NCBI RefSeq assembly: GCF_013388945.1
Contig: NZ_JACAEH010000021.1
Location: 95,309 to 159,308 of the forward strand
Length of the DNA stretch: 64,000 bases
Direction of reading: 5' to 3'
Origin: Nitrososphaera sp.
Lineage (GTDB): Archaea > Thermoproteota > Nitrososphaeria > Nitrososphaerales > Nitrososphaeraceae
Both the position numbers and the translations under genes were made by a program. Shown here piece after piece: positions 13,154 through 16,595 of the stretch. Within the stretch, counting starts at the first letter, position 1. The number at the start of each line of letters is the position of its first letter. The notes beneath the pieces are model-generated. The model was not told where the DNA came from. It was given only the letters and a program-made list of their open reading frames with translations, and did not search any database.

Positions 13154-15376
13154 ATGCACACCAGATTAGCTAGTGGGGTTCTGCTGGCAGCCATCCTTGC
13201 ATTTTCAATAGCATCGATGGCAGTGGCAGCCCGGCCCGCATTCGCGCAGAGCGAGACCAAGGGCCAGTCTTGGAGTTCTATGAACACTTTGGCAGGCGAT
13301 GCCGAAAAGACTTTTGAAACGGACAAGGCAGGCGCTCTTGCCAAGCTCGACCAGGCGGAGGAAAAATACAACAGCGCTTTCCGCGCCACTGCGTTTGAAG
13401 TCGACAATGCAACTGGACAGGCGATGGACAAGGCGTTTGTCGACATGCGCGCCGCCATCAACTCTGGAAGCAAGATAGACGTCATGCTGAACAAGCAGGT
13501 GATAGACAAGCTCACCTACAAGGTGGCTTTCATGAAGATACAAAAGAGCCTGAGCGAGGCGACGTCCCAGCCACTGAGACAGGCAAAGGTGAACGAGGCC
13601 GCCGGGTGGTACACGGTCATGACGGTCAAGTTCAAGTACGACCAGACGCCGACAGAGTCGTCGCAGGCAATGGCAGCGCTGCAGGCCGACTCTAGCAAAC
13701 TTCAGGAGCTGACGCCTGTCATAATCGACGGCCTGAAGGCCCAGTTCCTGCTCAAGGTTCGTGAAGAAATTGTGGAGGCAGTAGGCGCGCTTGAAAAGAC
13801 GCCGGCCGACACGCTTAACGCGCAAAAGTTTACGCAGGAAGGGACGATGTACTACCGCACTTTGCAGCCCGACGTGGCGGCAAAGATAGGCGCCGAGGAC
13901 GAGGCGGAACTTTCGCACGAGCTTGACGAGCTGATGGAGGCGTCGGCAGCAGGCGACCTTGCAAAGGCGCAGGAAGTGGCTGCAGAGTTGAGCGCGCTCC
14001 TTGACGCGTACGAGGGCAAGGAATCGACAGGAATCGCAGGCGCGCTCAACACGATGAAGGACATGCTCACGCTTGTAGACGATGAATATTCTGCGGCGGT
14101 TGCAAACGGGCAGATAGTCGACCAGCAGGAATACGATGAAGCGGTGCTGTTCCTGGAGAGGGCGACTGACGCCTTTAACGGCGCCAGGTCTTCGCTAGAG
14201 GCGACAGGCTCGGCTGCGGCAGGCGAGCTGGAAGATGACCTTGCGACCATCGCGACTCTCGTGCAGGGCAAGGCCGACCCGTCTGAAGTGAGACAAGTGG
14301 TGCAGCACGCGCTTGCCGAAATAGAGACGATTCGCGCAGCGGCCGGCGGCAGCGCAGAATTTGCCGCCAACGTAGAGTTCATACGCGGCCACCTTGAAAA
14401 GGCGATAGAGAACAAGAACGCAAACAGGATACCGCTTGCAGCTGCGCACGCAGGCCACCCTGTGGAAGAGGTGTACTCGCTCATCACGGTGCCTCTGTCA
14501 AGCGCGGACGCAGAACTTGACGAGCAGCTCGACAGCGCGCTTGTAACGCTTGCAAACAGCATAGACACCCTGTCCGCATCGGAGGTTGAAAGCGCAGTCG
14601 CTGACATCAACGCGATGCTGGACGACGCGATGGCGGCAGTTGTCGGAAACGAGAGCAGCAAGCCAGAGTTTGGCGCGATGGTCGTGGTGTTGCTACTGCA
14701 GACAGCCGAGGTCGAGTACGGCGAGGCTGTCGCAAACGGCCAGATAGTCGAGGAGATAGAGTATCAGGACGCAAGCGCGTTCATGCACCGCGCAGTTGTG
14801 GTGTTTGAAGGCGTGAGGGGCGGAATGGACGAGCACGAGGCCGAAGAAATTGACGAGTTCTTTGCACAGCTCAATTCTGCAGTCTCTGCAAAGGCCGAGC
14901 CTGAACAAATAAACACGCTGCTTGGCGGCATAATCCACGAGCTTGACGAGGTGTTTGCGCTCGGCGTCGAGGACAGCGAGGAGCTCGACGGCTGGGGCTA
15001 CATCGACCACATCAAGGAGCTCCTGGACGAGGCAGTCGAGCACTACAAGGCAGGCAACGCTGCAGAAGCCCGGGCGCTTGCGATAGAGGCCTACCTTGAC
15101 AACTATGAGTTCATCGAGGCCGACATCGCCGAAGAGGACAGGCCGCTCATGGAAAAGGTAGAGATTGACATGAGAGTCGAGCTGGTCCAGATGATAGACC
15201 AGGGCAGGCCCGCGTCTGAAGTCGAGTCCCACGTCGAGCAGATAAAGACGGACCTTGAAGTCGCAAGGGCAGTGGTGACGCCCGAGTTCCCGGTCGCAGC
15301 AGTTGCAGCCGCGCTGGCAGTCGGCGGCGCCGTTGCCTACACAAGGTTCAGGACTTCCTTTGGCCGCAGGGCCTAA
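13154..15376 (+). CDS. Large helical exported protein with PEF sorting-type C-terminus
   Basis: The 740-residue protein has a signal peptide cleaved near AFAQSE (residue 32), a long acidic, alpha-helical mature part, and the C-terminal tail VVTPEFPVAAVAAALAV followed by a helix end and RFRTSFGRRA. The helical region contains related segments: VDDEYSAAVANGQIVDQQEYDEA (about 310) and VEYGEAVANGQIVEEIEYQDA (about 520), indicating internal duplication. A TATA box CTTTATAAG lies 30 nt upstream. Similar C-termini are processed by thaumarchaeal archaeosortase. Probably a surface-attached, coiled structural or binding protein; activity unknown. Confidence 0.8.
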   Translation: MHTRLASGVLLAAILAFSIASMAVAARPAFAQSETKGQSWSSMNTLAGDAEKTFETDKAGALAKLDQAEEKYNSAFRATAFEVDNATGQAMDKAFVDMRAAINSGSKIDVMLNKQVIDKLTYKVAFMKIQKSLSEATSQPLRQAKVNEAAGWYTVMTVKFKYDQTPTESSQAMAALQADSSKLQELTPVIIDGLKAQFLLKVREEIVEAVGALEKTPADTLNAQKFTQEGTMYYRTLQPDVAAKIGAEDEAELSHELDELMEASAAGDLAKAQEVAAELSALLDAYEGKESTGIAGALNTMKDMLTLVDDEYSAAVANGQIVDQQEYDEAVLFLERATDAFNGARSSLEATGSAAAGELEDDLATIATLVQGKADPSEVRQVVQHALAEIETIRAAAGGSAEFAANVEFIRGHLEKAIENKNANRIPLAAAHAGHPVEEVYSLITVPLSSADAELDEQLDSALVTLANSIDTLSASEVESAVADINAMLDDAMAAVVGNESSKPEFGAMVVVLLLQTAEVEYGEAVANGQIVEEIEYQDASAFMHRAVVVFEGVRGGMDEHEAEEIDEFFAQLNSAVSAKAEPEQINTLLGGIIHELDEVFALGVEDSEELDGWGYIDHIKELLDEAVEHYKAGNAAEARALAIEAYLDNYEFIEADIAEEDRPLMEKVEIDMRVELVQMIDQGRPASEVESHVEQIKTDLEVARAVVTPEFPVAAVAAALAVGGAVAYTRFRTSFGRRA

Positions 15377-15743: not shown

Positions 15744-16214
15744 TTGAAGAGATTTTTTATCCTGGCGCTGCTGTTTGCACCTGCAGCGGCGTACGCAGAC
15801 GAAGGCGGCGCGGCAGCATCGCTTGGGTGGGTCGCGATAGGCGCAGGCGCGCTTGGCACCGTGCCTTTCATGCTTTACGTGCGCGTGAAAAAGCTGTCAG
15901 TCGCAACGCTTGGCGGCGGTGACGCGATAACAAGGGACCTCTCCCTGCAGCACCGGCCGATTCTGAACGCCCACATCGCGCTCAACCTGATAGGCTTTGC
16001 TGCCGGGGCCGCGCACGGGGTCGCCCTCATAAGGGGGCTTGACGCGATCTCGCTCTCGCTTGCGGTAGTGATGACAGTCCTGACTGCAAGCGGCATAGTG
16101 CTCAGGTTTTCTTCAAGGAACGCCAGGGTGTTTGCAAAGGTGCTCCACACCCAGATTGCAATGTCTGCATTGCTTGTAGTATTGATAGCGCTGCACGTGC
16201 TTGCTATGACTTGA
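15744..16214 (+). CDS. Four-TM cytochrome b-like membrane protein
   Basis: The 156-residue protein starts at TTG, one base after the previous stop. It has a signal-like first helix and three to four further helices. Histidines are spaced as in di-heme four-helix proteins: His77 and His91 in one helix (NAHIALN...AAHG), and His135 and His151 in another (LHTQIAM...IALH). This spacing suggests two stacked hemes, as in cytochrome b561 or ferric-reductase-like domains, moving electrons across the membrane. No flavin or NAD domain is attached. Its 3' end overlaps the convergent regulator gene by 11 bases; the neighbouring DtxR-like operator makes a link to iron attractive but unproven. Confidence 0.6.
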   Translation: MKRFFILALLFAPAAAYADEGGAAASLGWVAIGAGALGTVPFMLYVRVKKLSVATLGGGDAITRDLSLQHRPILNAHIALNLIGFAAGAAHGVALIRGLDAISLSLAVVMTVLTASGIVLRFSSRNARVFAKVLHTQIAMSALLVVLIALHVLAMT

Positions 16215-16545
16215 GCGAAATGCGCGCATCGTTTCTTTCAAAATGCAAGAACACCTGGTCGCGGGACAGGTTGAACTCCATCGACTTGACCCTGCTCCTG
16301 TAGTAGACGACCTTCCTGCCCTTGCCGTCAAGCTCTATCCTTTCGACAGACAGCAGGCCGGCCTCCTGGAGTTTCTTGATCTTTTTGTACGTTGAACTTA
16401 GCGGCAGCGAGTTTTCTGCAGACACCTGCGCGGCGGTCTTGGCGGCATCAATAGTTGACATTATTATCCTGTGCGAGACGCCGTCTGCAAGCTCTTGCAG
16501 GAGCGGCATCGCCACGTCGTGGCTGTCAAATGTGAGAGCGTTCAT
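16204..16545 (-). CDS. ArsR-like winged-helix transcriptional regulator
   Basis: The 113-residue protein (from ATG MNALTF; the track extends it to an upstream TTG) has a winged helix-turn-helix: DGVSHRIIMSTID, then AAKTAAQVSAENSLPLSSTYKKIKKLQEAGLLSVERI, followed by a wing with KGRKVVYYRSRV. It most resembles ArsR-type repressors lacking an obvious metal-binding CxC. It is preceded by a 28-bp palindrome of DtxR-box type between its TATA box and start codon, so its own expression is probably controlled by a metal-dependent DtxR/IdeR-family repressor. It would then be a second-tier regulator. Confidence 0.8.
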   Translation of the reverse strand: MNALTFDSHDVAMPLLQELADGVSHRIIMSTIDAAKTAAQVSAENSLPLSSTYKKIKKLQEAGLLSVERIELDGKGRKVVYYRSRVKSMEFNLSRDQVFLHFERNDARISLKS

Positions 16546-16552
16546 GGTCAAG

Positions 16553-16580
16553 TTAGGTAAGCCTAATTAGGCTAACCTAA
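16553..16580 (-). promoter_or_regulatory. DtxR/IdeR-type operator palindrome
   Basis: Two overlapping halves, TTAGGTAAGCCTAA and TTAGGCTAACCTAA, form a 28-bp near-perfect palindrome. The right half matches the known DtxR/IdeR box end (TAGGCTAACCTAA) exactly and the left half with one mismatch. It lies between the TATA box and ATG of the ArsR-like gene, where bound repressor would block RNA polymerase. Confidence 0.7.
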
Positions 16581-16586
16581 TCGGAC

Positions 16587-16595
16587 ATATTTAAA
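16587..16595 (-). promoter_or_regulatory. TATA box of ArsR-like regulator
   Basis: Minus strand TTTAAATAT lies seven bases upstream of the DtxR-like operator and about 46 nt from the ATG, placing the expected transcription start inside the operator. Confidence 0.55.

Follow-up and report, generated by a model that had tools for sequence, protein, structure and literature searches.

Which protein recognizes the 28-bp near-palindrome in front of the ArsR-like regulator gene of this ammonia-oxidising archaeon of the soil type, and to which metal does it respond? The element, TTAGGTAAGCCTAATTAGGCTAACCTAA, was read directly at positions 16553-16580 of the window (the whole stretch of 64,000 nucleotides that was analysed, G000:C15:95309-159308; the source genome comprises 1.99 Mb and is 99% complete). 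Iron may limit ammonia-oxidising archaea, yet little has been written on how they regulate their iron genes; neither DtxR nor any other regulator turned up in a text search of a study on iron in these archaea. Judged from its sequence and context, the element is very probably an operator for an iron-dependent repressor of the DtxR/IdeR family, with the protein encoded at G000:C28:24523 as the best candidate, which would repress the ArsR-like gene under iron.

Architecture of the probable operator and its promoter

All but two of the 28 positions of the element are self-complementary, and it lies, as the preliminary description had stated, between a TATA box and an ATG: the TATA box TTTAAATA of the regulator gene is located at 16588-16595 on the minus strand and the start codon at 16545. 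It is better described as a tandem operator of two head-to-tail, abutting TTAGG-N4-CCTAA palindromes of 14 bp than as one long palindrome; the latter description was dropped because the N4 spacers drift within each 14-bp unit. The promoter-distal unit TTAGGTAAGCCTAA (16553-16566) has the same sequence as the FTR1 operator of the source genome. The TATA-proximal unit TTAGGCTAACCTAA (16567-16580) reads TTAGGTTAGCCTAA on the minus strand and is thereby identical to positions 1-14 of the DtxR consensus (PMC8464063). The order on the minus strand is TTTAAATA, 7 bp, TTAGGTTAGCCTAA, the abutting TTAGGCTTACCTAA, another 7 bp and ATG; in relatives, TATA usually abuts the operator. The window thus contains two exact copies of the one-dimer core, arranged with a 14-bp period instead of as the classical 19-bp overlapping two-dimer palindrome, and no further TTAGGN4CCTAA, either exact or with one mismatch, was found in its 64 kb. 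The one-dimer site TTAGGNNNNCCTAA has been proposed as the consensus for IdeR/DtxR; a single IdeR dimer binds half of the 19-bp box, and a designed half site exhibited an apparent KD of 78 nM (PMC8464063).

Distances were counted from the six-base core of TATA to the beginning of the box, which lies 9-17 bp downstream in the FTR1 promoters, 16-18 bp downstream in the promoters of a hydantoinase gene and 2-9 bp downstream in those of the ArsR-like gene and of an RNA candidate described below; in tandem boxes, the first unit is placed against TATA. In archaea, RNA synthesis as a rule begins some 25 bp from TATA, so that the expected start is overlapped by the single boxes and, in most tandem boxes, by the second unit. 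The 7-bp gap in the promoter of the ArsR-like gene of the window puts this start close to where its two units meet. Repression through an obstruction of TBP/TFB and polymerase would be in keeping with this geometry.

A different arrangement was observed at the ferritin genes of two relatives, G015 (L106:3036-3049) and G014 (L099:3038-3051), which carry the box upstream of TATA, not downstream. Such a position would be compatible with iron-dependent activation as in corynebacteria (PMC1382209).

The proposed iron regulon and its candidate repressor

A pattern search of the source genome yielded seven exact copies of TTAGGN4CCTAA in five places and six copies with one mismatch, against three and 36, respectively, for the reversed control. 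As 1.4 exact 14-mers were expected from base composition, the genome-wide count of single sites is only moderate evidence; the 28-mer is unique within the genome. The other TTAGGCTAACCTAA-like sites for which the preliminary description proposed to search were indeed found, before an FTR1 iron permease and further genes. The FTR1 permease, which has a secreted N-terminal part, matches PF03239 (E=1e-15) and has its box at G000:C1:34591. Besides the ArsR-like gene on contig C15 with its tandem box, a hydantoinase/oxoprolinase-family gene (G000:C30:12108, L129) and a non-coding RNA candidate (G000:C31:126521, tandem box) are preceded by the motif, and the gene of a 134-aa HTH regulator lies near a DtxR box of ambiguous TATA geometry (G000:C17:30060, L130). 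The homologue of the latter gene in G022 (G022:C98:6681, L115) also has a box, and with a box nearby in two genomes this protein is possibly another second-tier regulator.

The set extends to the relatives, which belong to one family and order; their gene content suggests ammonia-oxidising archaea of the Nitrososphaera type. The box precedes FTR1 in the source genome and in nine tabulated relatives, and the hydantoinase gene in the source genome and eight further genomes; judging by these promoters, the latter gene is a conserved regulon member. Secreted FTR1-N-like proteins of relatives are also encoded behind the box. DtxR genes themselves are frequently nearby: the box is found before a FeoA-fused DtxR with a FeoB operon (G027), before FTR1 followed by DtxR (G027 and G022) and before DtxR genes (G038 and G039). 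In G018, the box, the ArsR-like gene and a DtxR gene follow each other in one direction, the two genes being 75 bp apart. Among the matches listed, an exact box is found within 3 kb of at least ten DtxR-family genes, whereas 0.57 such genes were expected (P about 6e-10, an approximate value).

The source genome encodes two DtxR-family proteins, with PF01325 and PF02742 above the cut-off, and the repressor gene that the preliminary description presupposed is therefore present. One of them (G000:C28:11302) passes the MntR cut-off, the other (G000:C28:24523) is of the iron type. The pattern C-G-I-E-H-H is invariant in five homologues of the iron-type protein (that of the source genome and the box-linked ones of G004, G018, G015 and G027). 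Its Cys, which is followed by the E/H ligands, is aligned to a Glu of MntR and presumably corresponds to the iron ligand C102 of DtxR.

Iron and manganese had initially been named side by side as the possible signal. The MntR-type protein could be the binder and the control thus exerted by manganese, considering that similar proteins occur in most relatives and that in G007 an MntR-type gene is located 430 bp from a box. However, the genes of the regulon are iron genes (FTR1, FeoB, ferritin), and the DtxR proteins beside a box that were typed by alignment (in G004, G015, G018 and G027) are all of the Cys-containing iron type. We consider manganese control improbable, and control by iron through the iron-type DtxR is favoured as the best reading.

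Conservation of the box

Of the 300 genomes of the class that were searched, 13 contain the exact 28-bp tandem pattern, with 22 occurrences in total, and none contains its reversed control. Together with conservation upstream of orthologues, this count is strong evidence for the box. The double box is located directly upstream of the ArsR-like gene in all ten genomes with the closest orthologues, the source genome included. Both units are exact in nine of these promoters, eight with the 14-bp period and that of G018 with 17 bp, a 3-bp insert separating the units; in the tenth, that of G022, one mismatch is present. The TATA sequence GTTTAAATA, TTAGG and CCTAA are nearly fixed in these promoters, with free variation at the four spacer positions, which is the signature of a protein operator.

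With all close orthologues carrying the box, the ArsR-like protein might bind the palindromes before its own gene, as operators beside small winged-helix genes are often autoregulatory. Yet the more distant ArsR-like homologues are without the box, whereas FTR1, FeoB and DtxR genes have it in genomes that lack a close ArsR-like relative (the best match in G027 has E = 4e-4), and the motif matches the DtxR consensus; autoregulation is very unlikely. A chance palindrome, or a protein-free hairpin or terminator formed by the 5' leader, is largely refuted and next to negligible: folding of such a 28-bp palindrome at the RNA level is conceivable, but TTAGG and CCTAA are kept in a fixed 14-bp register while the spacers drift, the boxes lie over expected start sites or, at the ferritin genes, upstream of TATA in DNA expected to stay untranscribed, and the controls gave 0 against 22. 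The assignment to the DtxR family is supported in that the motif is a one-dimer site, iron genes form the regulon, DtxR genes are present and the site is kept upstream of orthologues.

The ArsR-like regulator and its neighbourhood

The regulator gene (16204-16545, minus strand) encodes a single-domain winged-helix protein of 113 aa with an ArsR/SmtB-like fold. The start in the list of open reading frames is TTG at 16551; ATG at 16545 was preferred, as MN-LTFD is common to the closest orthologues from this codon onwards. The original designation as ArsR-like holds for the fold: the folds nearest to the AF2 model (pLDDT 83) in a Foldseek comparison were Phr, PH1932, NolR and SmtB. It does not extend to the cysteines or to the family score. 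The 113-aa protein has no cysteine and so none of the cysteine metal ligands of ArsR, NCBIfam HTH_metalloreg gives no match, and the cut-off of the curated ArsR family is not reached; scores in ArsR and HTH families are weak, only HTH_20 being just above the cut-off. These features suggest that the protein is probably not a metal sensor but an iron-regulated effector.

The neighbourhood of the gene appears to be iron-related. The product of the convergent gene at 15744-16214 (plus strand), regarded earlier as a di-heme-type membrane protein, is a small membrane protein with a weak resemblance to cytochrome b561/DUF4405; the adjacency is kept in one relative (G007), and a haem protein is possible. 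A secreted repeat protein of 740 aa (13154-15376, plus strand) shows homology to the FTR1 permease whose gene carries the box, namely to its extracytoplasmic N-terminal part, and a homologue of this secreted protein is encoded near the ArsR-like gene in several relatives. On the plus strand between 13154 and 16214, genes of the FTR1-N-like secreted protein, a small membrane protein and the b561-like protein form an apparent operon, for which a role in reductive iron uptake is conceivable. In the source genome this operon has no DtxR box in front of it, and no shared second-tier operator was seen by eye upstream of the FTR1-N-like genes without a box. The proposed link to a CDF exporter was abandoned: this neighbour is not conserved, and no CDF gene was found in the stretches examined around the orthologues.

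A non-coding RNA candidate

Directly behind the tandem box on contig C31, a candidate non-coding RNA with a terminator-like hairpin was found on the minus strand (G000:C31:126374-126520; L128:2862-3021). The box is followed by AGGAAG-CTGGC-TTGGCATCTACCAGCAAG and then by a GC-rich hairpin with compensatory changes. Homologues with a tandem or single box are present at L093, L097, L101, L145, L174 and L176. A covariance model from which the box was left out recovers the five training copies, a second copy in G007 (E=2e-6) that abuts a one-mismatch box, and a weak match in G023 (E=0.6) with an exact box three bases upstream. A two-base insertion in the G015 copy argues against coding. No Rfam family matches the candidate, and complementary sites for its GCTGGTAGATGCCAA region gave no convincing start-codon target in four genomes. 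The C31 element is possibly an iron-regulated small RNA in archaea, which would be an unexpected member of an iron-response gene set alongside an iron importer.

Another conserved stretch was noticed behind TATA and a single DtxR box in G014 (L094:2999-3130) and G015 (L103:2975-3100). It is located upstream of a SUI1-like gene, has CTRYTGGCATCA in common with the C31 candidate and may represent either a leader or another small RNA.

Discussion

From the box, its promoter geometry and conservation, the membership of the regulon and the presence of the repressor gene, all of which can be read in the sequences, we infer DtxR binding, iron dependence, repression and the existence of second-tier targets. 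When iron is plentiful, Fe(II)-loaded DtxR dimers would occupy both abutting 14-bp palindromes. As the dimers would cover the interval from TATA to the start codon, the expected transcription start included, the ArsR-like gene would be off. As iron falls, the dimers would leave and the small winged-helix protein would be made, which would probably adjust a second gene set as an effector of iron starvation, in the manner of RipA or of the DtxR-controlled ArsR-family regulators of corynebacteria. The two-tier cascade of the preliminary description is thus plausible, with the targets of the ArsR-like protein as its presumed second tier. With some hesitation, we suggest that the iron-type DtxR may control two second-tier regulators via the tandem operator, the winged-helix protein and the C31 RNA, which together might constitute a system for sparing iron in archaea, in which the RNA would play the part of RyhB or IsrR. 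The operator, the repressor and the gene list are now concrete and testable in cultured Nitrososphaera.

DtxR-family regulons of archaea (Idr1/Idr2, SirR, TroR) were reportedly described by Leyn and Rodionov in 2015 (cited in PMC11349517), and the present system is similar in that proteins of this family would govern iron genes. The closest solved folds to the predicted model, the heat-shock regulator Phr (2p4w) and PH1932 (1uly/2cwe), also belong to archaeal ArsR-fold proteins, but these are longer, share about 20-26% identity with the regulator and are not known to be under iron control.

The bacterial IdeR half-site is present in archaea, in a tandem register and on regulator genes. As in the actinobacterial DtxR/IdeR boxes (19-bp TTAGGTTAGSCTAACCTAA), the archaeal 14-bp unit is exactly TTAGGNNNNCCTAA, and in both cases the targets comprise genes for iron importers, for ferritin and for additional regulators. 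The actinobacterial units overlap with a 5-bp offset, whereas the archaeal ones abut with a 14-bp period in a TATA promoter. Corynebacterial DtxR controls RipA and the ArsR-family regulators cg0527 and cg3082, and the cg0527 orthologues of two other corynebacteria (DIP0415 and CE0466) also have predicted DtxR sites (PMC1382209). The archaeal system seems to resemble RipA and cg0527/DIP0415/CE0466 in placing an iron-dependent DtxR over a small ArsR-type regulator, with the site inside the promoter, in a hierarchical iron network. In contrast to the cg0527 system, the archaeal regulator has no cysteine, resembles archaeal winged-helix proteins and is served by other promoter machinery. Since the control of an ArsR-like regulator by DtxR is known in corynebacteria, the archaeal tandem operator appears to be a variant of this bacterial logic.
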